Below are positions 12,415 to 25,902 of a stretch of 64,000 nucleotides of DNA, in pieces. Under the pieces are notes generated by a model. It was not told where the DNA came from. It ran no database searches and saw only the letters and a list, made by a program, of their open reading frames with translations. Positions within the stretch are counted from its first letter, which is position 1. Every line of letters starts with the position of its first letter. The stretch is from Zobellia uliginosa. Lineage in GTDB: Bacteria > Bacteroidota > Bacteroidia > Flavobacteriales > Flavobacteriaceae. The stretch is taken from contig NZ_JAHKPY010000002.1 of the NCBI RefSeq assembly GCF_018860745.1, forward strand, positions 688,618 through 752,617, given 5' to 3'. The translations under genes and the position numbers were made by a program.

Positions 12415-13515
12415 TTACTTATTGACGGAGAAAATCTCTTTCAATTGTTTCACAACACCTCCGTTTCCAGAGACCGTGATTTCACCGATTCTCTCGGCGA
12501 TTTTTTCAACGTATTCCATTTCCTTCAGCTTGAAGAGCATTTCGTTGTCTTCCATCAGTTTTGCGGTGTTCAGCAAACTTCTGGTCGACGCCGATTCTTC
12601 ACGTCGGGTAATGATATTCGCTTGAGCTCTTTTTTGAGCCACCAAAACTTGGTTCATGATATCTTTCATTTCACCAGGCAAGATTACATCACGGATACCG
12701 CAGCTCAAAACTTCAACACCCAATTGGGTAGCGGCTGTCTTGATATCGCCAAACACAGCTTCCGCGATGCTTTCTTTACGCTCTAGAAGTTCATCTAGCG
12801 TATAGGTGCCGATATACGCACGTAATACCAATTGCATAGCGATATACAATTGCTTCTCGTAGTCTTTGCTTCCTAGTAAGGCCTTTTCGATATCTATAAC
12901 TTTATACTGTGTATAGAAGTTGATACGAATAGCAGCCTTGTCTTTAGTCAACAGTTCTTGACCAGAAATCTCCAATTGCAATTGACGCATATCTGCCTTG
13001 GCAATTTTGATGGAGATGTCATTTTTCCAGAAATGGTATGCACCACTTTCGAGAGTCTTGACATAAACATCATCAACCAAAAGAACAGCTTTTTCATATG
13101 CTGCAACTTCTAAAACACGAACATAAGGACGCAATAGTGTATGACCCAACATTGCTTTGCTGATAGTCTCAGTGATATAGATTTTACTCAAATCAGCCAT
13201 CACGAACTCATACTTTAGCAAGCTTTTCCAAAAGGCATACTTACCAGCTGTCAAGACCTGCTTCAAGTTTCCGTTTTCAGAAACTAAAGCCAGTTCAGCA
13301 TCTTTAACTTCGATAATATGCAACATCGCTTCCAAACTTTGGTCCTGTAGCAAGATTTCTAATGCTATAGGAGCAACAAAGGCTTTGGTAAGGTCATAAA
13401 TCATAACCGCATTTCTAAAACCTACCCAATGTGTACCTTGGGTAATTACTTTTTGGTAATCGCCTCTTTTGAAGACCAAACCTACTTTTCCTGCATTAAT
13501 TCTTACTCTTTTCAT
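12415..13515 (-). CDS. Slipin-type SPFH/Band 7 protein
   Basis: A 366-residue protein with two halves. Residues 1-130 contain an N-terminal module with VGLVFKRGDYQKVITQG and a second copy-like segment AELALVSENGNLKQVLTAG. From about residue 140 comes the SPFH domain, with LVLRAYIGTYTLDELLERKE, GVEVLSCGIRDVILPGEMKD and the helical stretch VLVAQKRAQANIITRREESA typical of slipins. There is no clear membrane helix, unlike eukaryotic stomatins. SPFH proteins form oligomeric scaffolds at membranes; slipins are known to be encoded near rtcB in other bacteria. Here the gene ends the minus-strand side of the RNA-repair island, downstream of the tRNA array. Its 3' end has a decayed duplicate at 26243-26297. 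Confidence 0.85.
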   Translation of the reverse strand: MKRVRINAGKVGLVFKRGDYQKVITQGTHWVGFRNAVMIYDLTKAFVAPIALEILLQDQSLEAMLHIIEVKDAELALVSENGNLKQVLTAGKYAFWKSLLKYEFVMADLSKIYITETISKAMLGHTLLRPYVRVLEVAAYEKAVLLVDDVYVKTLESGAYHFWKNDISIKIAKADMRQLQLEISGQELLTKDKAAIRINFYTQYKVIDIEKALLGSKDYEKQLYIAMQLVLRAYIGTYTLDELLERKESIAEAVFGDIKTAATQLGVEVLSCGIRDVILPGEMKDIMNQVLVAQKRAQANIITRREESASTRSLLNTAKLMEDNEMLFKLKEMEYVEKIAERIGEITVSGNGGVVKQLKEIFSVNK

Positions 13516-13896
13516 TACTTAAAATTTGTGTCCGCCAGTCTAGTGACGGACGAACGAGTTAAACTATTATCATGTATTACTATTTGTTCTATTTAAAAAA
13601 AACAGCAGGTGCATATCATCTTTCTGATACGGAAATACTGGTTTTTGATACTTGTTACAATTCGTTTTATAGCATGCGTCCGATTGTGCTACTAATAATA
13701 TTGTTATCAGTTTTCCAGAAGGAAGGATGACCAAAAAAGGATTTGCCTTTCACATCAAAAAATCACCATCTCAAAGTAGCTTCATGATTGTCTTTACTTC
13801 CCTTAGGAAACAATTACTGATCTACAGCTACTGCTTTTTGTCATTTTAAGCCTAACAGGGCTTGGTAATCAGTTTTAAAAGATGATTAGCTTTAGG
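13516..13896 (-). other. Leader region of slipin, with hairpin at 13530-13551
   Basis: About 380 bases between the last tRNA piece and slipin. A hairpin (GTCCGTCA with TGGCGGAC, 8 bp including one G-T, 6-base loop) lies 15 bases before the slipin ATG and would be in its mRNA leader. A weaker hairpin AAGCC/GGCTT near 13848-13863 follows the array. No protein gene is supported. Confidence 0.5.
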
Positions 13897-13939
13897 CTAC
13901 ATTATGAGTGTAGTGCTCTACCAACTGAGCTAAAGGGCC
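13897..13939 (-). tRNA. 5' half of a tRNA with CAT (Met/Ile2) anticodon
   Basis: On the minus strand: acceptor strand GGCCCTT, TA, a perfect D arm (GCTC/GAGC), then a perfect anticodon arm CTACA-CTCATAA-TGTAG with anticodon CAT. After that the sequence has no variable loop, T arm or matching 3' acceptor strand. A partly complementary 3' half (T arm plus AAGAGGCC) lies upstream, not downstream, so the order of halves is reversed. Confidence 0.7.
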
Positions 13940-13949
13940 TAAAAAAGGT

Positions 13950-14012
13950 GGCCTCTTGCAGGAGTCGAACCTGCGCGTCCTTCTGTTGTTCTAACCGCTG
14001 AACTACAATCCC
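13950..14012 (-). tRNA. Chimeric or permuted tRNA piece with shortened anticodon region
   Basis: It starts as a normal tRNA (GGGATTG, TA, D arm GTTC/GAAC) and ends as one (T arm GCAGG-TTCGACT-CCTGC). Only 13 bases separate the two arms, where about 23 are needed, and its own acceptor strands (GGGATTG and AAGAGGC) cannot pair. The 5' part pairs perfectly with the 3' half just upstream; the 3' part fits better with the Met 5' half just downstream. Confidence 0.65.
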
Positions 14013-14014
14013 AA

Positions 14015-14045
14015 TGGGATTGATGGGAATCGAACCCATGACTCA
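14015..14045 (-). tRNA. 3' half of a tRNA (T arm and acceptor strand)
   Basis: It contains the T arm ATGGG-TTCGATT-CCCAT, acceptor strand CAATCCC and discriminator A, but no 5' half before it. Instead, upstream is a hairpin (GATTGTTT/AAACAATC, 14053-14076). Two bases after its end begins GGGATTG, its perfect 7-bp acceptor partner. Confidence 0.65.
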
Positions 14046-14117
14046 CAGAGTGGTGATTGTTTTTTGGTAAACAATCGAAACCATCAAGTCAAGTTGTACA
14101 TGAAGACATTATACTTC

Positions 14118-14276
14118 TCAGTAAAACTTCATACAATAGTGCCCTACAGAAACACCCAACAAGACTAGCTTGATATTGTTATTCCTGCCAAGGCAGGAAA
14201 GTATTTTAATGAACTTTTGTAAAGCCTCACAACACTCCTTGTTGCTATGAGGCACTACCACAAAACATGTTTCCAT
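14118..14276 (-). CDS. Possible 52-residue small protein in the array spacer
   Basis: An ATG at 14276 opens a 52-codon frame starting METCFVVVPHSNKECCEALQ. The opening faintly recalls small proteins of about 90 residues that start with a VxxPHxxxEC phrase, of which this would be a shortened form. The frame covers two good hairpins (14182-14199 and 14224-14253), so the region may instead be structured RNA. I rate coding as uncertain. Confidence 0.25.
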   Translation of the reverse strand: METCFVVVPHSNKECCEALQKFIKILSCLGRNNNIKLVLLGVSVGHYCMKFY

Positions 14277-14312
14277 GAGCTTGTTTTTAATTACATGACA
14301 AAAGTGAAACTG

Positions 14313-14337
14313 TACTACGCAACTATTGTGCGTAGTA
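14313..14337. promoter_or_regulatory. Candidate operator: perfect 9-bp inverted repeat
   Basis: TACTACGCA and TGCGTAGTA are perfect inverted arms around a 7-base spacer. The right part and flank (TGCGTAGTAAAA) recur almost unchanged at 21756-21780, in the divergent promoter region of rtcB and the WYL regulator. Two such copies in one island suggest a shared binding site, most simply for the WYL protein. Confidence 0.55.
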
Positions 14338-14357
14338 AAATATTCTTTTGCTTTTTG

Positions 14358-14430
14358 TGGAACAGACAGGACTCGAATCTGTATCGTCGAATCTTCAATC
14401 CGCCGCATTGACCATCTTTGCTACTGTTCC
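14358..14430 (-). tRNA. tRNA-Phe(GAA), imperfect stems
   Basis: Acceptor GGAACAG/CTGTTCC is perfect, discriminator A. The anticodon loop TTGAAGA gives GAA. One pair in the anticodon stem (27:43 G-A) and one in the T stem (A-C) do not match. CCA is not encoded. Confidence 0.8.
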
Positions 14431-14435
14431 CTCTT

Positions 14436-14509
14436 GGGTGTACTCCGGGACTCGAACCCTGTTCCTCCCGTTCACAGCGGGGCGCTTTACCGGATAAGCT
14501 AGAGACACC
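14436..14509 (-). tRNA. tRNA-His(GTG), with mismatches
   Basis: Anticodon loop CTGTGAA gives GTG. The histidine identity pair G-1 with C73 is present if the acceptor is taken as GTGTCTC; the 3' strand then has a bulged T. Mismatches also occur in the anticodon stem (C-A) and T stem (A-G). It looks functional but degraded. Confidence 0.75.
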
Positions 14510-14514
14510 ATATG

Positions 14515-14586
14515 AAAACCCGAAAGGATTTGAACCTTTACAACAAGAATCAAAATCTTGTATGCTAACCGTTACATCACGGGTCT
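14515..14586 (-). tRNA. tRNA-Gln(TTG)
   Basis: All four arms form. Acceptor AGACCCG/CGGGTTT, anticodon arm CAAGA-TTTTGAT-TCTTG with TTG, T arm AAAGG-TTCAAAT-CCTTT. Spacing to neighbours is 5 bases on each side. Confidence 0.9.
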
Positions 14587-14591
14587 ATTTG

Positions 14592-14663
14592 CAAGCTTAA
14601 CAAGATTTGAACTCATACCTCAGGTTTAGAAATCCTGCGTGCTATCCATTACACCATAAGCTT
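14592..14663 (-). tRNA. tRNA-Arg(TCT)
   Basis: Acceptor AAGCTTA/TAAGCTT is perfect, discriminator G. Anticodon loop TTTCTAA gives TCT. The innermost anticodon-stem pair is A-A; the T stem contains two G-T pairs. Confidence 0.85.
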
Positions 14664-14668
14664 AATTG

Positions 14669-14742
14669 TACCCCACTCAAGATTCGAACTTGGACTTGAA
14701 GGATTTTAAGTCCTTTGCCTCTGCCAGTTGGGCTAGTGGGGC
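14669..14742 (-). tRNA. tRNA with Leu anticodon TAA, short variable loop
   Basis: Acceptor GCCCCAC/GTGGGGT, D arm GCC/GGC, perfect anticodon stem AAGGA/TCCTT with loop CTTAAAA, discriminator A as in tRNA-Leu. The variable region is only 5 bases (CAAGT). Bacterial tRNA-Leu normally has a long variable arm, so this is an unusual class I form. Confidence 0.85.
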
Positions 14743-14746
14743 ATTG

Positions 14747-14819
14747 TACAGGGAGAGAGATTCGAACTCTCAGACTACTGGTTCTAAACCAGCTGCGGTT
14801 GCCATTTCGCCATCCCTGC
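14747..14819 (-). tRNA. tRNA with Leu anticodon TAG, short variable loop
   Basis: Acceptor GCAGGGA/TCCCTGT, D arm GCG/CGC, anticodon arm GCTGG-TTTAGAA-CCAGT, T arm GAGAG/CTCTC, discriminator A. As in its neighbour, the variable loop has 5 bases (AGTCT) where tRNA-Leu should have a long arm. Confidence 0.87.
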
Positions 14820-14823
14820 ATTG

Positions 14824-14896
14824 CTGAGGCATTAGGAATCGAACCTAAAACTTCCGTGTTAACAGCACGGTACTCTACCTATTGAGTTATACCTCA
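14824..14896 (-). tRNA. tRNA-Asn(GTT)
   Basis: Acceptor TGAGGTA/TGCCTCA, D arm ACTC/GAGT, perfect anticodon arm CCGTG-CTGTTAA-CACGG, T arm TTAGG/CCTAA, discriminator G as expected for Asn. Confidence 0.93.
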
Positions 14897-14901
14897 CTTT
14901 G

Positions 14902-14973
14902 TACTCTGTAGGGGAATCGAACCCCTATTTCCTGATAGAAAGTCAGGCGTACTAACCGTTATACGAACAGAGC
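14902..14973 (-). tRNA. tRNA-Glu(TTC)
   Basis: Acceptor GCTCTGT/ACAGAGT, D arm GTA/TAC, perfect anticodon arm CCTGA-CTTTCTA-TCAGG, T arm AGGGG/CCCCT, discriminator A. Confidence 0.92.
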
Positions 14974-14977
14974 AAAT

Positions 14978-15060
14978 GTCTGAGAAGCAAGATTGACTTC
15001 GTCTTTCTTGCAACTACTCCTTGTTAATCAAATTCAAGTAAACTTGATTTGATTAAGTCG
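14978..15060 (-). other. tRNA-Pro 3'-end fragment and 15-bp hairpin
   Basis: The minus strand carries CTTGCTTCTCAGA, identical to the 3' end of the adjacent tRNA-Pro, with the T-stem strand GCAAG kept but the T loop replaced by about 15 other bases. Just upstream (15024-15056) an almost perfect inverted repeat of 15 bp with a 2-base loop fills the gap. It looks like a partial duplicate of tRNA-Pro. Confidence 0.6.
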
Positions 15061-15132
15061 TCTGAGAAGCAAGATTCGAACTTGCGACCTCCCGCGTCCA
15101 AGGCGGGTAAACAACCACCGTTATCTTCCCAG
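15061..15132 (-). tRNA. tRNA-Pro(TGG)
   Basis: Acceptor CTGGGAA/TTCTCAG (one G-T), short D stem AAC/GTT, perfect anticodon arm CCCGC-CTTGGAC-GCGGG, T arm GCAAG/CTTGC, discriminator A as expected for Pro. Confidence 0.88.
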
Positions 15133-15137
15133 TTTTG

Positions 15138-15210
15138 CAGTACCGACGGGACTCGAACCCGTACCTTTCCGATAGACAGTCGGGCGCTCTAGCCTTTGAA
15201 CTACGGTACT
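15138..15210 (-). tRNA. tRNA-Asp(GTC)
   Basis: Acceptor AGTACCG/CGGTACT perfect, D arm GTTC/GAGC, anticodon loop CTGTCTA with one outer C-A mismatch in the stem, T arm ACGGG/CCCGT, discriminator G as expected for Asp. Confidence 0.9.
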
Positions 15211-15214
15211 AAAG

Positions 15215-15297
15215 TGGAAGCAGTAGGACTCGAACCTACATGTCATTTTTGAATCTGATTTACAGTCAGGCGAGCCAGCCAGTTGCTCAATACTTCC
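15215..15297 (-). tRNA. tRNA-Tyr(GTA)
   Basis: Acceptor GGAAGTA/TGCTTCC, D arm GAGC/GCTC, anticodon loop CTGTAAA, long variable region of about 14 bases as bacterial tRNA-Tyr requires, T arm GTAGG/CCTAC, discriminator A. One outer C-A mismatch in the anticodon stem. Confidence 0.9.
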
Positions 15298-15305
15298 ATT
15301 TTTAG

Positions 15306-15378
15306 AGACAAGGATGAGATTCGAACTCATAAAGAACGGATTTGCAGTCCGCCACCTTAACCATTCAGCCACCTTGTC
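15306..15378 (-). tRNA. tRNA-Cys(GCA)
   Basis: Acceptor GACAAGG/CCTTGTC perfect, anticodon arm GCGGA-CTGCAAA-TCCGT, T arm ATGAG/CTCAT, discriminator T, the identity base of tRNA-Cys. Confidence 0.92.
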
Positions 15379-15385
15379 AATTTGG

Positions 15386-15472
15386 CGGAGGGCAAAGGAA
15401 TTGAACCTTCACTACCTTATGGTAGACTCGCTTAGCAGGCGAGCGCAACAAACCAGTATTTGCCTACCCTCC
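15386..15472 (-). tRNA. tRNA-Ser(GCT)
   Basis: Acceptor GGAGGGT/GCCCTCC, D arm GCA/TGC, perfect anticodon arm CTCGC-CTGCTAA-GCGAG, long variable arm with stem CTACC/GGTAG, T arm GAAGG/CCTTT, discriminator G as expected for Ser. Confidence 0.93.
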
Positions 15473-15475
15473 AAT

Positions 15476-15546
15476 TGCTTCAGCCGCGGGAGTCCAATTT
15501 CCCAGACTGGCAGAGAACCTGCATGTGCCGTTATCCGCTAACACCT
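15476..15546 (-). other. Degenerate tRNA-like sequence at the head of the array
   Basis: A tRNA-sized stretch 4 bases from tRNA-Ser has a possible anticodon hairpin (GCAG/CTGC) and a GGGA/TCCC hairpin with a T-loop-like ATTGGACT, but the acceptor strands do not pair and the T loop lacks TTC. Probably a decayed tRNA; the specificity cannot be read. Confidence 0.45.
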
Positions 15547-15641
15547 TTATTCATTTTTAATTATTCGCCTGCCCGGTTCGGGCCAAGAGTGTGGCCACCG
15601 CCCTTTGGCTTGCTCTTCCTTTTTTCAAAAAATAATGCGCA
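15547..15641 (-). promoter_or_regulatory. Region upstream of the tRNA array
   Basis: The array on the minus strand must be transcribed from here or from read-through of the terminator at 15642. The stretch 15560-15612 is GC-rich and holds a hairpin GCCCG-AAC-CGGGC. I see no promoter that fits the Bacteroidota consensus well. Confidence 0.35.
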
Positions 15642-15672
15642 TAAAAAAAGCATCTCGTTATCGGAGATGCTT
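15642..15672 (-). terminator. Terminator of predicted small RNA 1
   Basis: Perfect 9-bp stem AAGCATCTC/GAGATGCTT with a 7-base loop, followed on the minus strand by seven T. Confidence 0.85.
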
Positions 15673-15848
15673 CATATATGCTAATGTTGATTTTATGTCA
15701 ACACATGATACACGTATTTCTCCTTTGTTTACAAATGGACAGTTGATTACTATAGAACCGTTCAAACCCTTTCGGCGAACAGAGATGTAGTTCCACTAAT
15801 TGTATACGTCTTTTTAAAAATTCCATTAGTATGGGTTTGTGATTTATT
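15642..15848 (-). ncRNA. Predicted small RNA 1 of the RNA-repair island
   Basis: A promoter with TTTG and TTTGCA boxes (15854-15886) is followed by about 205 noncoding bases that end in a strong terminator (AAGCATCTC/GAGATGCTT plus T run, 15642-15672). No open frame is convincing. The same promoter layout appears before predicted small RNA 2 at 19269, after the other rtcB operon. Expression is a prediction only. Confidence 0.5.
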
Positions 15849-15853
15849 ACGGT

Positions 15854-15886
15854 GCAAAGATTATAACGATTTTTGAATTACGCAAA
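15854..15886 (-). promoter_or_regulatory. Bacteroidota-type promoter of small RNA 1
   Basis: On the minus strand a -33 TTTG is separated by 20 bases from TAATCTTTGC. The segment AATTCAAA-N13-TTTGCACC is kept with the same spacing in the promoter at 19276. Confidence 0.55.
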
Positions 15887-16070
15887 TAAAAATGAATTTA
15901 AATTATTGATAATCAATTAGTTATATTGAAATTAGACACTAAAATCCCTGTCCGTCATATTGCGGATTTTGAACATTTGCTACAATCGCCTGTCTACCAA
16001 TTGTTTCGTAATTCAACTATCTAGTTTTGTATTTTTTTACTTCTCATTCAATTGTTTAAAATTATTCCAT

Positions 16071-16104
16071 AAAAAAAGCGCCCAATGTTAGTTGGACGCT
16101 TTTT
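16071..16104 (-). terminator. Terminator after the rtcB-prfH-TPR operon
   Basis: AAGCG-x-CCAA pairs with TTGG-x-CGCTT around a 6-base loop, with T or A runs on both sides. It is almost the same hairpin as the one at 19482. Between it and the TPR stop lies a perfect 10-bp hairpin (TTTTCGCTCA/TGAGCGAAAA, about 16176-16203), so the 180-base tail may be a processed 3' UTR or a further small RNA. Confidence 0.75.
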
Positions 16105-16285
16105 AATATCAATATATGGTATTAGTTCATAGAATTAACTCTCATACAAAGTCACAAAACGTCCTTTTCGCTCACTATATTCTGAGCGAAAATTGAAGAG
16201 ACAAAGCTCTATTTGTTGGATGATATGTAACTCTCTCGGTGTCATTTGTTTTACAAAGATGTTATTTTTAAACGTTTTGATACTA

Positions 16286-16831
16286 TTATTTATTCTTTTT
16301 CTTCCTTTTTTTAGTTGAAGATTTCTTCTTTTTAACTTTAGATTTATCTAATTTCAACTTCTTTTTAATTCTATTTTCTTCATCAACTATATAAAACATA
16401 TAGTCGTTGTTATAGGTAAGTCTTTTTGCTTCTTTTAAATGCTGCAGCGCAACCTTATAATTTCCATTTGTTTCTAATGCATAGGCTGAAATAGAGTACA
16501 GCTGAGCTTTATCTATACCTTTTATCGAAAGAGCAAATTCAATTAATCGAAACGCCTTTTCAGTTTCATCCGCCCAGATTAAATACTTAGCATATAATGG
16601 GTATACATCTATATAATAAGTATCAATTGCTATCACCCTATCAAAGCATTCGAATGCTTCCGAATACTGATTCAAATTTCGAGCATATACTTTACCTAAA
16701 AGACAAAGTGCTGCACAATGATTTTCATCATAAGACAAGGCGTAATTTAGTGATTCACAAACTTCGTCCCAATCATAACCAGATGCTGCCTTTGCTTTTA
16801 AATAATAGGTGTCGGCTATTGTTAGTCCCAT
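16286..16831 (-). CDS. TPR protein with lysine-rich tail, RtcB/PrfH-associated
   Basis: The 181-residue product is helical with three to four TPR-like units (ALCLLGKVYARNLNQYSEAF; YPLYAKYLIWADETEKAF; YSISAYALETNGNYKVAL). It ends in a very basic tail (KKKLKLDKSKVKKKKSSTKK...) that could bind RNA or ribosomes. Its ATG overlaps the prfH stop by 10 bases, so it is the third gene of an rtcB-prfH-TPR operon. I do not know this protein from characterised PrfH systems. An adaptor that brings PrfH or RtcB to damaged ribosomes fits the context, but that is inference. Confidence 0.7.
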   Translation of the reverse strand: MGLTIADTYYLKAKAASGYDWDEVCESLNYALSYDENHCAALCLLGKVYARNLNQYSEAFECFDRVIAIDTYYIDVYPLYAKYLIWADETEKAFRLIEFALSIKGIDKAQLYSISAYALETNGNYKVALQHLKEAKRLTYNNDYMFYIVDEENRIKKKLKLDKSKVKKKKSSTKKRKKKNK

Positions 16832-17514
16832 TTTTGTTTATTTAGATCGTTTTTAAGCTTTTGCCGTTTTGGTTTAAAGCTTTTATTCTCTTTTTGATGT
16901 TTGAAATCGGTTCCTTTAAAAATCCGGATCGGATTTCCTCGTTGCAGATTCAAATGATTCTCCCATTGGTCGGTCATACTGCCCTTCAACTGCTCTAGGT
17001 TAGCTTCATTTACTTTTTCTTTTAACCGAGCTATTGCTAGTTTTTTGTTTTGATGTTGTGAGCGACTATCCATGGCAACTACTTGAACTCCTGTTGGGTT
17101 ATGAATTACCCGTACGGCTGAGTTTACCTTATTTACATTCTGACCACCAGGACCTGTACTTCTCATCGTTTGAAAAGAGATATCTCTGTCGCATATTTCA
17201 GAATGCTGTGGCAATTTCAATTCGAAAGCACCGATAAACCAGTTTTTACGTTTGTGGTATTTTCTAAAAGTTGAGTTGCCAATCCATTGAATTGTTCCTA
17301 ACCAAGTAGCTAAAAAAATTTCTAGGTTTTTCCCTGTCAAGCGGATGCTGACTGATTGTACCGTTCCATTTTGATTTCCTTTTTCTCTTTGCAAGATGAC
17401 ATACTGAAACCCTTCAGTCTTGGCCTCTTGCAAGAATTTCTTAAGCACTTGGGAAACAACCCAGCTACATTCTGATGGGCCTCTTCCTGCTGTTATTTGT
17501 ATAATTTTTTCCAT
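16822..17514 (-). CDS. prfH: Peptide chain release factor homologue PrfH
   Basis: A 230-residue class I release factor relative. The catalytic GGQ motif (GPGGQNVNKV, GGQ at 123-125) is intact, but the domain that reads stop codons in RF1/RF2 is absent, and the start IIQITAGRGPSECSWVV is the PrfH signature. The C-terminus is basic (KRQKLKNDLNKQKWD), as in factors acting in the ribosomal A site. PrfH is encoded with rtcB in many bacteria; work on the RtcB2-PrfH pair links it to release of peptide from ribosomes with a cleaved decoding centre (colicin E3 type damage), with RtcB then rejoining the 16S rRNA. Here rtcB is 94 bases upstream, with a large hairpin between the genes. Confidence 0.93.
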   Translation of the reverse strand: MEKIIQITAGRGPSECSWVVSQVLKKFLQEAKTEGFQYVILQREKGNQNGTVQSVSIRLTGKNLEIFLATWLGTIQWIGNSTFRKYHKRKNWFIGAFELKLPQHSEICDRDISFQTMRSTGPGGQNVNKVNSAVRVIHNPTGVQVVAMDSRSQHQNKKLAIARLKEKVNEANLEQLKGSMTDQWENHLNLQRGNPIRIFKGTDFKHQKENKSFKPKRQKLKNDLNKQKWD

Positions 17515-17533
17515 TTTTTGTTTCTTTAAAAGA

Positions 17534-17603
17534 AGTAGCTAGCGTTGGTATTCCAATAATCTTAAGTTTTCAATATGCTCTATGAATACTTTCGCTAACT
17601 ACT
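17534..17603 (-). other. Large hairpin in the rtcB-prfH intergenic mRNA
   Basis: On the minus strand AGTAGTTAGCG pairs with CGCTAGCTACT (11 bp, one G-T). After a symmetric 3x3 internal loop, GTATTC pairs with GAATAC (6 bp) around a 30-base loop. It fills almost all of the 94 bases between the two genes. It is not a terminator, as no T run follows at once. It may tune the ratio of RtcB to PrfH, mark an RNase site, or be an RtcB substrate. Confidence 0.7.
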
Positions 17604-17608
17604 ATCTA

Positions 17609-19000
17609 TTATTTATCCATTCGTACTATTTTAGGAGTGAAGGTTCCGAGTACTTCAACCAATTCTTGTTGATTCGCCATGACTTTTTTAATGTCTTTAT
17701 AGGCCATAGGCGCTTCATCAATTCCGCCACCAATAAGCGTTACTTCATTTTTTTGTAACTGCTTTTTAATTTCACTTTGGGTAAAAGTCTCTTTGCACTT
17801 ACGTCTTGAAAAAAGACGACCGGCGCCATGAGAAGCAGAGTTTAGACTCTCTACATTTCCCAAACCTTTTACGATGTAACCAGGAGCGGTCATTGAACCA
17901 GGAATGATTCCTAAAACTCCTTTTGCTGCAGGTGTGGCTCCTTTTCTGTGCACAATGCACTCTTCACCGTTTATGGCTTCTTTCCAAGCGAAATTGTGAT
18001 GATTATCAATTTTCACCACCGCTTTTTCTCCAATTAATTTGGCCAGACGCTTGTGAATATTATCATGACATGCGGTTGCATAATCGCCAGCTAAATTCAT
18101 AGCTAGCCAATATTCTTGGCCATCATGAGTATTCAAATCCAACCAAGCCAAGTGTTGTACTTGTTTTGGTAACGGACATTGCTTAGTTGCCAAATAGGTA
18201 TAGTGCTTTGCAATATTTGCACCCAACCCTCGTGAACCGCTGTGAGATAATATGCCTAGATATTCTCCAGGTTTTAATCCCCATTCGTTTTTTGCATCCA
18301 TTATAGATACACTTCCGAACTCGACAAAATGATTTCCTCCACCAGAGGTGCCTAATTGTTTATAGGCTTTGTCTTTCAATCTTTTTACCAAAGGGATGTC
18401 GTTAAATTCATCTCTTTCGAAGATTTCATGATCATGTTTTATTTGATGCGTTTCTCGCATTCCGAATTTGGTATGCTCAGAAAGGATGTTCGACAATTGA
18501 TGTTTCTTTCCTTTCAGATAAGAGACTGGAATCGGATAAATAGTCAAACACATTCTACAGCCGATATCAACGCCTACTCCATAAGGAATCACCGAGTTCT
18601 TCGTCGCCAAAACACCACCGATAGGTAAACCATAACCAGAATGTGCATCTGGCATCAATGCGCCGGCAACAGAAACTGGAAGTTTTAAGGCATCGTACAA
18701 TTGATACTTGGCTTGTTTTTCAATTTCATTTTCACCATAAATATGAAATGGTGCACGTACCGTTTTGAGTGCATGCTTTTTCACTATTACAGGATCTAAC
18801 AAACTTTCAGCAATCTTACCCCAAACCCCATCACCTTGATAGTTTTCAGGATGTAACAATACTTTTTTGGCTTCTCTCAGTATCTGTTCTTTCTTTACTC
18901 GTTTGTGATACCGATTGATTTGACCTAATGTAATGTTGATACTATTGTTCTTTGGAAAGCCCAATTTAATTAGGGCTTTTCCGCTTAATTTCTTTCCCAT
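17609..19000 (-). CDS. rtcB: RNA-splicing ligase RtcB (PrfH-associated type)
   Basis: A 463-residue 3'-phosphate RNA ligase that joins 2',3'-cyclic phosphate or 3'-phosphate ends to 5'-OH ends using GTP and Mn. All active-site elements are visible: VDIGC (Asp145, Cys148), GGGNHF (His224), SHSGSRGLG (His253), DNHHNFA (His335), and SHGAGRLFSR with the guanylylated His391. It is the first gene of an operon with prfH and a TPR gene, which places it with the RtcB2-type repair ligases of ribosomes. The start MGKKLSGKAL at 19000 gives normal length. A second, divergent rtcB lies 1.3 kb upstream in its own operon. Confidence 0.96.
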   Translation of the reverse strand: MGKKLSGKALIKLGFPKNNSINITLGQINRYHKRVKKEQILREAKKVLLHPENYQGDGVWGKIAESLLDPVIVKKHALKTVRAPFHIYGENEIEKQAKYQLYDALKLPVSVAGALMPDAHSGYGLPIGGVLATKNSVIPYGVGVDIGCRMCLTIYPIPVSYLKGKKHQLSNILSEHTKFGMRETHQIKHDHEIFERDEFNDIPLVKRLKDKAYKQLGTSGGGNHFVEFGSVSIMDAKNEWGLKPGEYLGILSHSGSRGLGANIAKHYTYLATKQCPLPKQVQHLAWLDLNTHDGQEYWLAMNLAGDYATACHDNIHKRLAKLIGEKAVVKIDNHHNFAWKEAINGEECIVHRKGATPAAKGVLGIIPGSMTAPGYIVKGLGNVESLNSASHGAGRLFSRRKCKETFTQSEIKKQLQKNEVTLIGGGIDEAPMAYKDIKKVMANQQELVEVLGTFTPKIVRMDK

Positions 19001-19100
19001 GATTTTAATTTTAGGAATAGGATGGCCGTTCCATTTATGGAAACCATACTAGATTTGATATATGTATTCGGAAAGTTGTGCCTTGAAAAATAAGGGCATA

Positions 19101-19134
19101 AAAAAGTCCGAAACTTTAGAGCTTCGGACTTTTT
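19101..19134. terminator. Terminator of predicted small RNA 2
   Basis: Perfect 12-bp inverted repeat AAAAAGTCCGAA/TTCGGACTTTTT with a 10-base loop; it works in both directions. Confidence 0.88.
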
Positions 19135-19269
19135 ATCATATTGCGAGTAGCGCTATGTGTGTATGAAGTCCTGAAGCGACACCACAATTGCACCTAGTGC
19201 TTGTAGTGTTTTTTGATATGTGATTGAAATTGTCATATATACTTCAGTTAAAAATGTTATTGTTTAATT
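19101..19269 (-). ncRNA. Predicted small RNA 2 of the RNA-repair island
   Basis: Downstream of a consensus promoter (19276-19307), about 170 bases without a coding frame end in a 12-bp terminator hairpin. A long-range pairing TGAAGT/ACTTCA is possible inside. Its position after the rtcB-HEPN operon mirrors small RNA 1 after the rtcB-prfH operon. The RNA could alternatively be the 5' leader of rtcB at 19000, but the strong terminator argues for a separate product. Confidence 0.5.
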
Positions 19270-19275
19270 CTGGTG

Positions 19276-19307
19276 CAAATCTAAAACGGATATTTGAATT
19301 ATACAAA
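19276..19307 (-). promoter_or_regulatory. Bacteroidota-type promoter of small RNA 2
   Basis: On the minus strand, TTTG, a 20-base spacer and TAGATTTG match the Bacteroidota housekeeping promoter (TTTG ... TAnnTTTG). The spacing and the sequence AATTCAAA...TTTGCACC equal those at 15854-15886. Confidence 0.65.
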
Positions 19308-19481
19308 TAAAATTTATTATAACTTGTTGAAAAACAATAAGTTATATTTTAATTTAGACATGAGTTAGCCTGTCCGTTAGTTAACAGATAGTAGCATATT
19401 TCATCAATTTGCTGCTTTTCAAATACTTAGCTTTCAAATGGCATTCTTTTAGAATTTTAAGAATTCTCAAAAATTTTACAT

Positions 19482-19509
19482 AAAAAAAGCGCCCAATTTC
19501 TTGGACGCT
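19482..19509 (-). terminator. Terminator after the rtcB-HEPN operon
   Basis: AGCG-x-CCAA with TTGG-x-CGCT around a 4-base loop, followed by seven T on the minus strand. It is nearly the same sequence as the terminator at 16071. The 140 bases between it and the gene stop contain AATTCAAA-N13-TTTGCA at the gene end, which resembles the two small-RNA promoters. Confidence 0.75.
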
Positions 19510-19651
19510 CTAGTTATGTATCTGTTTTCAATAGTATCTACCCATCAATTCGATGCAATCCTAGCTTTTCAGCGTCCGGTATGTGAATAAAATGATTTAA
19601 CATAGATATACTATTTTCTTGTTTTTGTTATTAGTAATATGCAAATATGGC

Positions 19652-20248
19652 TTATTCTTTTGAATTCTTAGATTTAAATTCGTCAAAATCAAAGTTTGTC
19701 CATGCGAAAACCATACCAGCAAATTTAATCAAACCCGACAATTCAGAAATATCAGAATTATAAGCTTCTTCGTCCTCAATGGTAATTCTTACCACTTTAC
19801 CATTAAAAATAAATTCTCTATCCTTTTGCTCTTCCTTTATTTCTTCAGCTCCCATAAGCATGTCATAGTTTATCTTACCATGTGCAACTACATTTCTAGT
19901 TTCTACGATTTTTGCTATTTTACTTTTTAGCCGATTACTGAACTTTTCATAGGTATCATATTTATGTAAAATTCCCATCCCATTCTTTTTAAAAAATTTC
20001 ACTAATTCGAAGAAGTATACATTTTTAAATATTTCTGAATTCACAATGTCCTTAAGAAATTCTACCTTTCTGCCAAAGGTTTTCCCAATTATAAAGTGCT
20101 TTTCCATTATTTGATAAACGGCCTTTTGATGCTCAGTATCCTTTCCATAAGAACGCATAAATCTTAGTATGAATGCATCTATTTCGTCCTCTAAAATAAT
20201 CGCGCTATTAATAATTCGTCCTCTTAATTCAGGAGTTTCTATTTCCAT
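19652..20248 (-). CDS. HEPN-like helical protein with Rx4H motif
   Basis: A 198-residue, mostly helical protein with no signal peptide. Residues 118-124 read RNVVAHG, so Arg118 and His123 form an R-x4-H motif. This is the catalytic motif of HEPN ribonucleases, although the same phrase also occurs in non-catalytic HEPN proteins. HEPN nucleases leave 2',3'-cyclic phosphate and 5'-OH ends, the exact substrate of RtcB. The gene follows the divergent rtcB by 17 bases and is surely co-transcribed with it. It could be a nuclease whose damage is repaired, a nuclease trimming ends before ligation, or only a sensor. I did not recognise a named family. Confidence 0.6.
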   Translation of the reverse strand: MEIETPELRGRIINSAIILEDEIDAFILRFMRSYGKDTEHQKAVYQIMEKHFIIGKTFGRKVEFLKDIVNSEIFKNVYFFELVKFFKKNGMGILHKYDTYEKFSNRLKSKIAKIVETRNVVAHGKINYDMLMGAEEIKEEQKDREFIFNGKVVRITIEDEEAYNSDISELSGLIKFAGMVFAWTNFDFDEFKSKNSKE

Positions 20249-20265
20249 TTCGGTTTAGTTTAAAA

Positions 20266-21663
<1,398 letters not shown>

Positions 21664-21667
21664 TTAG

Positions 21668-21695
21668 CTCCGCCGATTCCATTCGTCCGGCGGAG
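21668..21695 (-). other. Hairpin in the leader of rtcB
   Basis: CTCCGCCG and CGGCGGAG form a perfect 8-bp stem 17 bases before the rtcB ATG. It is very GC-rich for this genome. The slipin leader has a hairpin of similar size and position, so both may affect translation. Confidence 0.55.
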
Positions 21696-21755
21696 CGCTA
21701 CATGAAGTCGGCGAACCGGCTTCTTTATGATTCCAAAACAAACTTGCGACTCATG

Positions 21756-21780
21756 TGCGCAATTATTTTGCGTAGTAAAA
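21756..21780. promoter_or_regulatory. Candidate WYL operator in the rtcB/WYL divergent region
   Basis: TGCGCAA and TTGCGTA are inverted arms (6 of 7) around TTATT, followed by GTAAAA. The sequence matches the inverted repeat at 14313 at most positions. On the plus strand a TTTG inside the right arm, 17 bases before TAGTATTTT, could be the -33 box of the WYL gene, so a bound regulator would block or contact polymerase. Confidence 0.55.
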
Positions 21781-21814
21781 AATGATTTAGTATTTTCATT
21801 AAAAACACTCCTAA

Positions 21815-22831
21815 ATGGCTCTCAATAAAAACGCCCTTATCCGCTATAAAACTATTGACAAATGTTTACAGAATAACTACCGTCAATGGACTTTAGATGA
21901 TTTAATTGAAGCCTGCTCAGATGCCTTATATGAATACGAGGGTCGTGAAGTGAACGTGAGTAAAAGGACGGTTCAATTGGACATTCAATTAATGCGAAGC
22001 GATAAATTGGGTTACAATGCACCTATTACGGTTTATGAAAAGAAGTATTACAAGTATGAAGAGGAAGATTATTCGATTACAGATATTCCAATTACGGAAA
22101 ACGATATGAATGTGCTTTCTGAAACTGTAGAGATGCTAAAACAATTTAAAGATTTTTCCTTGTTTTCGGAATTAGGCGGTATCATTCAACGATTAGAGGA
22201 CAAGGTCTATACAGAGAAAACACATCAAGCATCAATCATTCACCTAGATAAAAATGAAAACCTAAAGGGGCTCCATTGGTTAGATGAATTGTATCAAGCC
22301 ATTCAGAAAAAGGTGGTCTTGAAATTAGAGTATAAGTCGTTCAAAGCTATAGAGGCGAACATAATCACCTTTCATCCCTGTTTATTAAAGGAGTTTAATA
22401 ATCGATGGTTCTTAGTAGGAATGGGGAACAAAAATAAGGGCGTTGTTAATTTGGCCTTAGACCGAATTATCTCGATTGATTATGATTTTACAACTTCCTA
22501 CACAGACTTTGAATTTGATGCAGATACCTTTTACAAGGACGTTGTTGGTGTAACGGTAAATCAAGGAGAGCGAGCTTCAAATATTAAGTTGTGGGTTGAT
22601 AGATATAATGCTCCTTACGTGATTACAAAACCCATGCATCATTCACAGCTCATTGAGAAAGAAAATGAAGATGGTAGCATTGAAATCAATATCAAAGTAA
22701 AAATCAATTTTGAGTTAGAACGATTGATTTTAGGTTTTGGAGAGGCCATAAAAGTGATACAACCAGAGCGATTGCGTAAACGAATTGCTAAGAAACTGGT
22801 AAAAGCTGTCGGTTACTACAATTTAAATTAA
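21815..22831 (+). CDS. WYL-domain transcriptional regulator
   Basis: The 338-residue protein has an N-terminal winged helix-turn-helix (residues 8-65, with WTLDDLIEACSDAL and VSKRTVQLDIQLMR). Then comes a linker and a WYL domain (about 150-250) with HWLDELYQAIQKKVVLKLEY, FHPCLLKEFNNRWFLVG and VVNLALDRI, and a WCX-like C-terminal end. WYL domains sense ligands, probably nucleotides or nucleic acid fragments, and regulators of this type control many defence and RNA-repair loci. It is divergent from rtcB with the inverted repeat between them, so it is the likely regulator of the island. Confidence 0.9.
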   Translation: MALNKNALIRYKTIDKCLQNNYRQWTLDDLIEACSDALYEYEGREVNVSKRTVQLDIQLMRSDKLGYNAPITVYEKKYYKYEEEDYSITDIPITENDMNVLSETVEMLKQFKDFSLFSELGGIIQRLEDKVYTEKTHQASIIHLDKNENLKGLHWLDELYQAIQKKVVLKLEYKSFKAIEANIITFHPCLLKEFNNRWFLVGMGNKNKGVVNLALDRIISIDYDFTTSYTDFEFDADTFYKDVVGVTVNQGERASNIKLWVDRYNAPYVITKPMHHSQLIEKENEDGSIEINIKVKINFELERLILGFGEAIKVIQPERLRKRIAKKLVKAVGYYNLN

Positions 22832-22890
22832 TCTTATCGAGAAATTATCGTAGAAAGCCAGAAAATGAATAAATTCAAGAAAAATATGAT

Positions 22891-23244
22891 ATGGTAATAA
22901 CAATAAAAGATGCCACCTTCTCAGGAGATATCTTAAATGAAATAGAGATTGCAGTTCAAAACGAACGTACTACGGTCAAAGACCTTATTGCCGCTCGTGT
23001 AACTTCTGAAGTGAAATCCTATAATGAAAAACTCCCTGAATACTTTAAAGGCTTAATTCAACCTAGTGAAGCTGAAAAGACACTAAACGGTTTTAAATTA
23101 AGGGACAGAAAAAAGAAGATTGATATTGAAAAGCAGATATTAGTTGCGCTAGACGCTTTTCAAAAAAATGGATACTTCATACTTATTGATAATCAACAGG
23201 TAGAGGATTTAGATCAAGAAGTATTAGTGAGTAAAACCACGTAA
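22891..23244 (+). CDS. Small hypothetical protein linked to the DUF4132 gene
   Basis: The 117-residue product has no signal or membrane segment. It starts MVITIKDATFSGDIL, then has a helical, charged middle (EIAVQNERTTVKDLIAARV, EAEKTLNGFKL) and ends GYFILIDNQQVEDLDQEV. I do not recognise a characterised family. It lies between the WYL regulator and the large DUF4132 protein on the same strand with short gaps (59 and 51 bases), so all three are likely one transcript. Small proteins of this shape occur next to MolR/DUF4132 genes and may be partner subunits; that is from context only. Confidence 0.65.
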   Translation: MVITIKDATFSGDILNEIEIAVQNERTTVKDLIAARVTSEVKSYNEKLPEYFKGLIQPSEAEKTLNGFKLRDRKKKIDIEKQILVALDAFQKNGYFILIDNQQVEDLDQEVLVSKTT

Positions 23245-23295
23245 ATTAGTTTTGTGAAACTCACTCAGTTAGTTGGTGGATAACATTAGAAGAAA

Positions 23296-25902
23296 ATGAG
23301 TATAAAAGATAGCTTAGCAAGTTTATTCGGAAAAGGAAATAATCAAAACGAATCCAGATCGGAATTTAATAAACTACTAAATGATTTACTAAAAGAAGCT
23401 TACAATGGTAATGAACACAACCATTGGATTACTGTATCTTTTAGCAAGTTAGAGACATATCAAAAAATCAAGTCAAAAGATTCTATAACAAAGAAAAAGT
23501 TGCTCTTTGATTTGATACCCCTAATTAACAAATACGAAAAATTATCTAGGAAACCGGGCGGTTATAGTGGACGAGAGGAAACTTATAGAAAAAGCTATCT
23601 CTATCCAGAGTTGTTTAACCTTATGATGCGCAGTAATCTCGATTTTTCGGATGAAGAAATTATTTCTCTGTTAAATGAGTACAAGATATCAGACGATAAA
23701 GCAGGAAGATGGTTCCGTGATTGGCCTCTAGGTTTTACTATCCAACAAGTAGAACGAATTGCAAAAAAGCATGGGCTTTCAGAAATACTAAAAAACCATC
23801 TTAAACAAGTTTTAAAATGGCCTCAGCTTAAAGAAAAAAGACATCATTGGGGGGCCGATCTAGAAAAAGTGAAGGTGAAGATTGAGAAAATAATCTTTGA
23901 AAGTGAGAATACAGATGGTGGAGTAGCTCCTTATAATTTACCAGAAGATCGACTGGCAGAAATTATAAACCCAGAAATTGAAAAGCTAAAATCAGAAGAA
24001 CAGAATCATTGGTATTCCCTTTTTCATTTGTTCATAAAAGCTACGGGTTCGAAGCCTAGTGCAAAATATCTCAAAAGCACTAGTGAACTGATTGATAATA
24101 TTGGACCTTCTAGATATAAAAAATCAGTTCAGTTATGGTTGGATTTTGTAATTCCCTTAAAAGCAATAGAAACACCTCATGTACATGATTATGGGGATGG
24201 TACGACGTATCAATATTCTAGCTATGACTTTCTGCATGAGAAAAACACGATTTTTTTAAAAGGACTTGTTTGGAGTTTATCGAAATTTCATGATTCAAAA
24301 ACTTTAAGCCTAGTAGCAAAACTTACGGAAAGGTCATTTAAGAAAATTCCAGGAGTTGGACCCACCGCTGCAGGAGTTGGTAATGCATGTATTTACACTC
24401 TAGGCAACACAAAAGGATTGGAAGGGATTAGTCATTTGTCTAGATTAAAGTTAAAAATCAAGCAAAACAATACTAAAAAACTTATTGAAAAGTACATTGA
24501 AACTTCTTCGGAAAAATTGGGTGTTTCTTCCTCTGAGATTGAAGAATTGTCTATTCCAGATTTTGGGCTTACTGACGGTTTTAAAAGTTATTCCTTCGAT
24601 GATTATACCCTGAAGCTTAAAATTGAAGGTTTGGGCAAAGTGTTATTGACTTGGATAAAACCAGAAGGTGGAATTCAAAAGACACCCCCCGCATTCATTA
24701 AAAATTCTACAAAACATAAACAGACCTTAAAACGTGTTAAGGAAGATGTTGCCCAAATAAAGAAATATTTAACTGCGCAAAGAGATCGAATCGATCGCTC
24801 ATATCTATATGATAGGATTTGGTCCAACGAGAATTTCTCTAAATTTTATTTGAATCACGGATTGGTAAGTTTCGTGGCTAAAGATTTGGTTTGGGAATTT
24901 AAAAAGATGGACAAATTTATTGCAGCTTATTGGCACCAAGAAAAATGGAAAGATATTAATGATATCGAGCTATCTTGGATTACTGAAGAGACATTAGTAC
25001 GTCTATGGCACCCTATCAATTCTGAAATTAATGAGGTTTTAGGTTGGCGAAATAAGTTAGAGGAATTACAGATAAAACAGGCAGTTAAACAGGTGTATCG
25101 AGAAGTATATATTTTAACCGATGCTGAGATAAATACAAAGTCCTATAGTAATAGAATGGCAGCTCACCTTTTGAAACAGCATCAATTTAATGCGCTTACA
25201 GCTATAAGGGGTTGGCGCTACTCTTTGTTAGGTGCTTATGATGATGGTCGTGATGGCGAAGTTGCTAAAATCAATTTAAAAGAGCATGGTTTAGAGGCGC
25301 AATTTTGGATTAATGAAATCTATGCTGATGATGCGTTTAACGATGCTGGTATTTGGAATTACGTAGCAACAGATCAAGTGCGTTTTATTGATGAAAAGGA
25401 CGAAGTAAAAGATCTGGTTGATATTCCCAAAATGGTGTTGTCGGAGATAATGCGGGATGTGGATTTGTTTGTTGGAGTGGCAAGTGTTGGTAATGACCCA
25501 GAGTGGAGAGATAATGGAGGATTACCTCAATATCGAGATTATTGGACCAGTTATTCTTTTGGAGATCTAAATGAAGTAGCTAAGACAAGAAAAGATATTC
25601 TAGAAAAATTAGTGCCTAGATTGAAAATAAACAATGTTGCAACGATTGAAGGAAAATTTCTTAAGATTAAGGGTACAAAAAGAACATATAAGATTCACAT
25701 AGGAAGCTCCAATATTTTGATGGAGCCTAACGATCAATATCTGTGTATTGTTCCTGCTCGAGGTAAGGATAAAAATACAGAGGACTTGTTTTTGCCTTTT
25801 GAAGGGGATAGAGGTTTATCATTAGTCTTAAGTAAGGCCTTTTTATTAGCAGCCGATGATAAGATTGACGACGCAACTATTCTTAGTCAAATTAATAGCT
25901 AG
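23296..25902 (+). CDS. Large DUF4132 / MolR-like protein
   Basis: An 868-residue cytosolic protein, helical in its N-terminal two thirds (HEAT-like, for example GVGPTAAGVGNACIYTLG and LTERSFKKIPG). The C-terminal third has the phrases LRGWRYSLLG-like AIRGWRYSLLGAYDDG, FWINEIYADDAFNDAG, MVLSEIMRDVDLFVGVASVG and NDPEWRDNGG, typical of the end of DUF4132 proteins such as E. coli MolR/YehI. Their biochemical role is unknown. It closes the WYL operon. Genes of this type are found near rtcB in other genomes as far as I recall, which would make this part of the repair system; I cannot confirm this here. Confidence 0.75.
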   Translation: MSIKDSLASLFGKGNNQNESRSEFNKLLNDLLKEAYNGNEHNHWITVSFSKLETYQKIKSKDSITKKKLLFDLIPLINKYEKLSRKPGGYSGREETYRKSYLYPELFNLMMRSNLDFSDEEIISLLNEYKISDDKAGRWFRDWPLGFTIQQVERIAKKHGLSEILKNHLKQVLKWPQLKEKRHHWGADLEKVKVKIEKIIFESENTDGGVAPYNLPEDRLAEIINPEIEKLKSEEQNHWYSLFHLFIKATGSKPSAKYLKSTSELIDNIGPSRYKKSVQLWLDFVIPLKAIETPHVHDYGDGTTYQYSSYDFLHEKNTIFLKGLVWSLSKFHDSKTLSLVAKLTERSFKKIPGVGPTAAGVGNACIYTLGNTKGLEGISHLSRLKLKIKQNNTKKLIEKYIETSSEKLGVSSSEIEELSIPDFGLTDGFKSYSFDDYTLKLKIEGLGKVLLTWIKPEGGIQKTPPAFIKNSTKHKQTLKRVKEDVAQIKKYLTAQRDRIDRSYLYDRIWSNENFSKFYLNHGLVSFVAKDLVWEFKKMDKFIAAYWHQEKWKDINDIELSWITEETLVRLWHPINSEINEVLGWRNKLEELQIKQAVKQVYREVYILTDAEINTKSYSNRMAAHLLKQHQFNALTAIRGWRYSLLGAYDDGRDGEVAKINLKEHGLEAQFWINEIYADDAFNDAGIWNYVATDQVRFIDEKDEVKDLVDIPKMVLSEIMRDVDLFVGVASVGNDPEWRDNGGLPQYRDYWTSYSFGDLNEVAKTRKDILEKLVPRLKINNVATIEGKFLKIKGTKRTYKIHIGSSNILMEPNDQYLCIVPARGKDKNTEDLFLPFEGDRGLSLVLSKAFLLAADDKIDDATILSQINS

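Follow-up and report, generated by a model that had tools for sequence, protein, structure and literature searches.

Several described systems resemble a gene island of Zobellia uliginosa in which two RtcB RNA ligases, the ribosome rescue release factor PrfH, a slipin and an array of 13 tRNA genes lie together; they are outlined here. In the RtcB2-PrfH module of Escherichia coli ATCC 25922, PrfH adjoins RtcB. The module guards against colicin E3, but E. coli gained no protection from it against colicins E5 or D (PMC9223846). The rsr-yrlBA-rtcBA operon of Salmonella and other bacteria combines RtcB with a tRNA-mimicking Y RNA and is switched on by broken tRNA, and Hughes et al. proposed that the tRNA-like domain of YrlA could inhibit an anticodon nuclease (PMC7790460). 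A tRNA operon (trn), rtcB and slipin form one translation-stress regulon in Anabaena, where loss of the repressor TrcR raises rtcB, slipin and the 26-tRNA operon, and antibiotics relieve the repression (PMC10272220). The tRNAs encoded in phage arrays have anticodon-loop changes relative to housekeeping tRNAs, through which they are argued to evade anticodon nucleases (PMC10264068). The combination of RtcB, slipin, WYL regulator, tRNA array and Y RNA was not found described in the literature titles and abstracts searched. Burroughs and Aravind are said to have surveyed RtcB, Band-7 and related repair operons in 2016, and that survey may already mention part of the set.

The island (12415..25902) was studied in a window of 64,000 nt, the whole stretch of DNA analysed (assembly GCF_018860745.1, contig NZ_JAHKPY010000002.1, positions 688,618..752,617 of the forward strand), from a genome of 4.86 Mb in 15 contigs. 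Coordinates are those of the window, and features lie on the minus strand unless the plus strand is named. All genes that an initial annotation of this DNA had placed in one island were open frames at the positions it gave, and profiles supported slipin, PrfH, the two RtcB, WYL, DUF4132 and TPR proteins. Slipin, 13 tRNAs, TPR, PrfH, RtcB-A, a HEPN-like gene, RtcB-B, WYL and DUF4132 follow one another in this order.

The locus differs from each of the described systems. Compared with RtcB2-PrfH, it has a TPR gene in the row, a leader peptide, a second RtcB and a tRNA array, and its RtcB-A scores under the RtcB2 cut-offs. In contrast to rsr-yrlBA-rtcBA, TROVE/Ro60 was not found in the genome, and neither RtcA nor RtcR was among the ten island proteins profiled, to which the search for these two was confined; the Y-RNA-like RNA stands beside slipin, accompanied by PrfH, WYL, the array and leader peptides. 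Whereas the Anabaena genes are unlinked and under a ribbon-helix-helix repressor, the genes here are linked and carry WYL and leader peptides. Unlike phage arrays, the array is chromosomal and tied to repair genes, and its changes centre on position 37 and include the loss of the long arm of tRNA-Leu.

We read the island as a stall-induced repair-and-replacement response to RNA damage, with a probability of roughly 55%, from its gene content and recurrence, the divergence of its tRNAs, the Y-RNA-like module, and the matching leaders and their layout. RtcB-A, PrfH and probably the TPR protein would rescue ribosomes with cut 16S rRNA and reseal them, as E. coli RtcB2-PrfH. Because the E. coli module protects from colicin E3 and lacks protection from E5 and D, tRNA repair by the RtcB-A/PrfH pair is not a given, and dealing with tRNA damage would therefore fall to RtcB-B or the array instead of RtcB-A. 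RtcB-B, probably controlled by WYL, may reseal other breaks, perhaps in tRNA. The array would supply substitute tRNAs in which the needs of charging and decoding are kept and much else is changed, position 37 in most Asp, Glu, Pro, Gln, His, Leu and Phe tRNAs among it; these changes would leave them less exposed to harm by tRNases or by the lack of modifications. As a mimic of tRNA, the tandem Y-RNA-like RNA may serve together with slipin, in most cases in the absence of Ro60, as a decoy or scaffold. Ahead of both the repair operon and the array stand a presumed promoter, a short leader peptide and a terminator. While the leader is translated normally the terminator would form, and a stalled ribosome would favour an antiterminator and turn the genes on. 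The attackers may be colicins or phage effectors, as the initial annotation supposed; the Y-RNA-like RNA, the leader peptides, the abnormal tRNAs and the probable stall-type control are new here.

A wider proposal, which we make only tentatively, is that Bacteroidia hold an inducible second tRNA set that survives tRNA-cutting attack, with pyrimidine 37 and tRNA-Leu without a long arm. Leader peptides poor in alanine would test ribosome movement and keep the set off, in parallel with arrays that lack tRNA-Ala, and RNA ligases, ribosome rescue and a Y RNA that works with slipin instead of Ro60 would be coupled to the set.

The repair genes were supported by profiles and alignments. PrfH (16822..17514) scored 225.8 bits with TIGR03072 (cut-off 166.65), and GGQ was present in its alignment. 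RtcB-A, the ligase partner of PrfH (17609..19000; Pfam 2.3e-84), and RtcB-B (20266..21651; Pfam 2.3e-36) both retain the Cys and His aligned with those of the P. horikoshii ligase, which we take to be the catalytic residues. RtcB-A remained below the NCBIfam cut-offs for RtcB2 (TIGR03073, 152 vs 271.8 bits; PRK09588, 185.1 vs 407 bits), and no RtcB match was found in the genome beyond the window. The TPR protein (16286..16831) had TPR_14 as the only Pfam profile above its cut-off. Slipin (SPFH/Band 7; 12415..13515) matched Pfam Band_7 at 1.6e-28, and the WYL regulator (21815..22831, plus strand), divergent from RtcB-B, matched Pfam WYL and WCX.

Conservation of these neighbours, on which the initial annotation had staked its idea, was found. 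PrfH was searched in 199 genomes of the family, and slipin, HEPN and the module model R1 (below) in 395 genomes of the class. True relatives of PrfH (E<=2.6e-79) were present in 16 of the 199 genomes, the own one included; a weaker relative (1.4e-36) occurred in genome G079, and the remaining matches resembled RF2 and RF1. Within about 10 kb on either side of PrfH in the 15 other loci (L063-L077; L078, with a weak PrfH, was excluded), we found RtcB-A in 13, TPR in 12, slipin in 7, and RtcB-B, WYL and at least five tRNA genes in 6 each. The best 80 of 586 RtcB-A loci contained PrfH in 61, TPR in 54, slipin in 9, WYL in 8, RtcB-B in 6 and DUF4132 in 1; six loci that duplicate other sets (L081, L086, L104, L115, L122 and L150) are counted in these figures and were removed before the tRNA, module and leader counts. 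By these counts RtcB-A, PrfH and TPR are the common core, to which some members of the group add the array, slipin, RtcB-B and WYL. Its recurrence in other genera shows that the clustering goes beyond chance. Further genes that recur in the islands include pairs of RlaP (PF10127), an RNase H-like protein, a DEDD exonuclease and a PcfJ-like protein.

Slipin matches at E<=1e-60 were obtained in 26 of the 395 genomes, including the own genome. Fourteen of the 25 other slipin loci had at least one tRNA gene, with a maximum of 20, and these tRNAs were on the slipin strand except for two in L283. At least two divergent tRNAs were found in 23/40 slipin loci vs 8/76 others (116 loci; Fisher P=1.2e-7, a guide only, as the loci are related and their lengths differ).

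The 13-tRNA array of the initial annotation was recovered by ARAGORN at 14357..15472, transcribed in the order Ser, Cys, Tyr, Asp, Pro, Glu, Asn, Leu, Leu, Arg, Gln, His, Phe. Rfam detected 12 of these tRNAs with default filters and all 13 with laxer filters, together with partial ones at 13887-13939 and 13958-14005; the whole genome had 52 Rfam tRNA matches. The 13 tRNAs and 227 from related loci made up a set of 240 divergent tRNAs, from which six at least 82% identical to housekeeping tRNAs were left out and in which a few single tRNAs, such as those of L124, L127 and L156, may be ordinary. The housekeeping reference comprised 103 tRNAs from three genomes (38, 35 and 30 distinct). The discriminator base of the own amino acid was kept in 218 of the 240 divergent tRNAs and U33 in 238. 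Their acceptor stems had 51% identity to the nearest housekeeping isoacceptor; housekeeping acceptor stems were 72-76% identical between two families and 91% between two genera of one family. The array tRNAs are thus altered tRNAs rather than duplicates of the usual set. Of the 118 array tRNAs in 18 nearer loci, 111 resembled the window array (mean 82.5%) more than the housekeeping tRNAs of the window's genome (67.4%). Because the array tRNAs are divergent and are related between nearer genera, replacement by the array is a supported part of the earlier repair-and-replacement proposal; its inclusion of an rtcB-HEPN operon and DUF4132 did not generalize.

Position 37 differed from the housekeeping base in 98 of the 227 tRNAs from related loci. 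It was changed in 19/19 Asp (18 U, 1 G), 16/17 Pro, 13/16 Leu(UAG), 12/13 Gln, 12/18 Phe, 10/13 Glu, 9/15 His, 6/9 Leu(UAA) and 1/1 Arg(UCG) tRNAs. G37 was replaced by A in Pro (16), Leu(UAG) (13), Gln (12) and His (9), and A37 by U in Asp (18) and Glu (10) or by G in Phe (12) and Leu(UAA) (6). U37 occurred in 28/240 divergent tRNAs vs 0/103 housekeeping tRNAs. The tRNAs with leucine anticodons were abnormal in another respect: 26 of 28, those of distant loci included, had a variable region of 5-6 nt without a long arm, the other two being single tRNAs in Sphingobacterium loci without slipin. All 12 housekeeping tRNA-Leu had a variable region of 12-15 nt, and the array tRNAs for Ser and Tyr retained their long arms. 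As ARAGORN names tRNAs by anticodon, charging of the armless tRNAs with leucine is presumed. Among the 18 arrays of at least five tRNAs, none had a tRNA for Ala, 2 had one for Thr, 4 each for Val and Gly, and 15 each for Arg and Leu. An adjacent pair of tRNA-like genes in locus L391 (genome G272) was called tRNA-Stop (tta) by ARAGORN.

The changes at position 37 would also be expected if the array held emergency tRNAs that need fewer modifications and are usable at once under any translation stress, nucleases not being the selective force. Through them m1G37 and m2A37 lose their sites, as does part of ms2i6A37. Induction of Anabaena trn by translation inhibitors (PMC10272220) agrees with such a role. 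However, the Lys, Asn, Tyr, Cys, Ser and Trp tRNAs are unaltered at position 37, and the linkage with RtcB and PrfH would be left unexplained. We consider this explanation rather unlikely.

The gap between the array and slipin contains a conserved noncoding RNA (13836..14177) resembling YrlA and Y RNAs, found as an nhmmer family built from the window and three relatives. Two permuted tRNA-like modules lie in it in tandem, at 13989..14039 (model R1, 56.4 bits, E=5e-14; a member of the training set) and at 13916..13974 (40.5 bits, E=3.5e-9). Each consists of a T-arm, a capped acceptor-like hairpin and a D-arm, which we take to be the permuted order of YrlA. The Rfam YrlA model matched the window RNA with 38.2 bits (E=3.4e-6), under the gathering score of 69, and also matched L063, L064 and L065 below that score (best 49.1 bits, in L064). 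These three loci carry in the same gap a tRNA of normal order in which a long insert replaces the anticodon arm; by eye, such a tRNA was not seen in the window.

In a structure scan, 34 of 38 usable loci had a module no more than 1.5 kb upstream of slipin, vs 14 of 669 control stretches, the first count becoming 33 once matches overlapping tRNAs were dropped. Model R1 was trained on modules from 19 slipin loci and matched 19 of the remaining 20. At 38 bits or more it was found upstream of 38/39 slipin loci vs 2/44 others (L126 and L153) by hand count; L110, which has no upstream DNA, was excluded from the module counts, and the cut-offs of 38 bits (the weakest slipin match) and 50 bits were chosen after the scores had been seen. 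Pairing in the modules was 98.9%, and 9 of 11 pairs varied on both sides, in modules that were picked partly by pairing and with the D-arm outside the model. R1 was rejected as a genome-wide detector at E<=1e-4, where at least 244 of the 395 genomes matched. Because the weak matches include junctions of ordinary neighbouring tRNAs, only matches of at least 50 bits were used. They occurred in 20 of the 395 genomes, of which 16 had slipin. In the other four the module was beside TROVE/Ro60 (L379, L387 and L388, the last also with RtcB) or beside RtcB-B, WYL and tRNA-Phe (L386). Some slipin-less Bacteroidia have TROVE beside the same module. In L379 and L387 a gene for a T4-type RNA ligase also adjoins the module.

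Of 25 genomes examined for TROVE, among them 3 that are not island genomes, 2 carried it. In genome G239 it lies inside the slipin island (L297), where Ro60, slipin, WYL, TPR and 12 tRNAs share a single island that may connect the Ro60 version with the slipin version. On this survey of module, slipin and TROVE, the RNA is a relative of Y RNA that occurs here with slipin and usually without Ro60.

The regular position of a tRNA mimic upstream of slipin, the oddness of a tRNA-Leu without a long arm for translation, and the proposal that the tRNA-like domain of YrlA could inhibit an anticodon nuclease (Hughes et al., PMC7790460) would all suit a decoy, in which the array tRNAs and the Y-RNA-like RNA stay outside translation and absorb tRNases while RtcB reseals the cut decoys. 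Retention of the discriminators, of U33 and of the Ser and Tyr long arms fits selection for charging and decoding instead, and a decoy would be expected to preserve the loop read by the nuclease, not to alter it. A pure decoy role is unlikely in our estimate.

The repair operon and the array have matching leaders. The paired noncoding blocks pointed out in the initial annotation, 19261..19360 and 15840..15938, aligned over 100 nt at 75% identity (E=1.7e-13 within ten stretches compared). The shared block has TTTG and TAnnTTTG-like elements, which we take to be Bacteroidota promoter elements; a scan for sigma-70 promoters was uninformative, yielding 36 where 35.2 were expected. Leader peptide 1 (27 aa; 19153..19236) precedes RtcB-A and is followed by a terminator (19102..19132) that was the sole match of the terminator pattern in the genome. 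Leader peptide 2 (36 aa; 16135..16245) comes directly after TPR, and the terminator behind it (16077..16104, by eye) aligns with the terminator region near 19486..19511 (43 nt, 86%). Leader peptide 3 (42 aa; 15698..15826) precedes the array, from which it is separated by an intrinsic terminator (15647..15673). Upstream of leader 1, a further leader frame of 21 aa (19538..19603, by eye) lies ahead of the 19486..19511 terminator; it is HI.DAEKL-like, and similar frames were seen in L065, L070, L100 and L107. Repair-operon and array leaders were also alike within each of L063, L064 and L065.

By the criterion used, a terminator was present within 600 nt upstream of RtcB-A in 42 of 88 loci. Forty of the 42 also had a leader frame, for which shuffles gave an expectation of 12.5, and 37 had the end motif L[RQ][DGA][FLT], for which they gave 0.0. 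In 11 terminator-less loci, array-bearing L065, L066, L070, L073, L083, L084 and L100 among them, a different gene stands ahead of RtcB-A, and upstream of this gene there is a similar terminator with a frame; 10 of these 11 frames end in an LR/LQ-like motif, L105 being the exception (both by eye). In a duplex test that allowed bulges, pairing between the frame end and the terminator's first arm exceeded that of 95% of shuffles for 20 of 24 leaders, the 24 having been chosen as distinct sequences (23 of the 40 framed loci and L123). A strict scan for contiguous antiterminators exceeded nearly all shuffles in 4/42. For the composition of leaders 2 and 3, nine sequences of each were selected by eye among 16 loci. 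Compared with nucleotide shuffles, alanine made up 0.8% vs 3.1% of leader 3 (3/2000 as low) and 1.2% vs 3.6% of leader 2 (13/2000). Ala, Gly, Val and Thr together made up 12.0% of array leaders vs 19.5% in shuffles (0/2000 as low), in parallel with the arrays.

The attenuator layout of leader peptide, terminator and competing antiterminator was seen for leader 1, and frames and terminators only, both by eye, for leaders 2 and 3. Such a layout is that of ribosome-mediated attenuation, and control is probably by stalled translation. The common control supposed in the initial annotation thus gains matching leaders at the level of sequence; joint induction would be its expected outcome. One might instead hold that only the repair genes matter and that the leader frames are chance frames ahead of ordinary terminators. 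Protein-level selection on the leaders was not convincing (dN/dS 0.5 to 1.2), and 46 of the 88 loci had no terminator within 600 nt, but the frequency of the end motif and the antiterminator pairing in 20/24 leaders speak against chance. Because of the shuffle control on the end motif, we lowered this explanation from unlikely to very unlikely.

The idea that the array is unrelated mobile-element or phage cargo landed beside repair genes, to which its optional presence and variable size, the lack of close kinship among distant arrays and the carriage of tRNA arrays and RtcB by phages lend something, is already disfavoured and highly improbable: the array has the same place between the repair genes and slipin in loci of several families, its leaders match those of the repair operon, and matches to phages and plasmids were partial, the top-ranked phage match covering 14% of the array and none 80%.

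Several results count against the repair-and-replacement response itself, in addition to the terminator-less loci, the dN/dS values, the usual position 37 of Tyr, Cys, Ser, Lys, Asn and Trp tRNAs and the colicin E5 and D results given above. Arrays are optional: tRNA genes were absent in 11 of the 25 other slipin loci, and arrays were missing from most RtcB-A/PrfH loci. The loci are related, so that locus counts are not counts of independent events. The Gln and Arg tRNAs of the window array have a changed discriminator. In 11 distant loci, 16 of 38 array tRNAs were closer to the window array, with mean values of 66.2% vs 65.3% for housekeeping tRNAs, and acceptor stems were 49% identical between the window and L290. 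Because of the difference between the nearer and the distant loci, kinship of arrays is established for the nearer group only, and common descent of all arrays is not shown.

If the proposed response is correct, bacteria, and not phages alone, keep spare tRNAs shaped to outlast tRNase attack, and these are tied with RNA repair under one translation sensor. It would then offer a ready test of the purpose of silent tRNA arrays. The locus also adds bacterial leucine-anticodon tRNAs without a long arm and tRNAs with pyrimidine 37, and it raises the possibility that a Y RNA acts together with slipin rather than with Ro60.

The HEPN label of the protein encoded at 19652..20248 is weak: the Pfam match (E=0.014) had 16.1 bits and did not reach the profile cut-off of 26.8, an RNVVAH motif was seen by eye, and the single-sequence structure model (pLDDT 58) was too poor for a structure search. 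As a conserved partner it was rejected, the gene being present in 1 of 395 genomes (the own one) and in none of the 15 other PrfH loci or the 80 RtcB-A loci, and the rtcB-HEPN operon of the initial annotation is thus no general feature. The DUF4132/DUF7737 protein (23296..25902, plus strand; Pfam DUF4132 and DUF7737) is adjoined by a small protein (22891..23244, plus strand). The two are peripheral to the island and stand beside RtcB in one other locus (L150/L288). Neither was found near PrfH in the 15 other loci. The case for DUF4132 as a core component is weak, this one locus being the 1 of 25 slipin loci and the 1 of 80 RtcB-A loci that have it. A conserved protein of 594-598 aa stands beside the arrays of L070, L100 and L276; the L100 copy had no Pfam or PDB match, and the L100 and L276 copies had no NCBIfam match. 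A protein of 824 aa (9526-12000, plus strand), which had no match among the 80 RtcB-A loci, adjoins the island and has a TIR-like N-terminus (PADLOC ThsB, 1.8e-9) and an Lcl_C C-terminus (5.1e-9).

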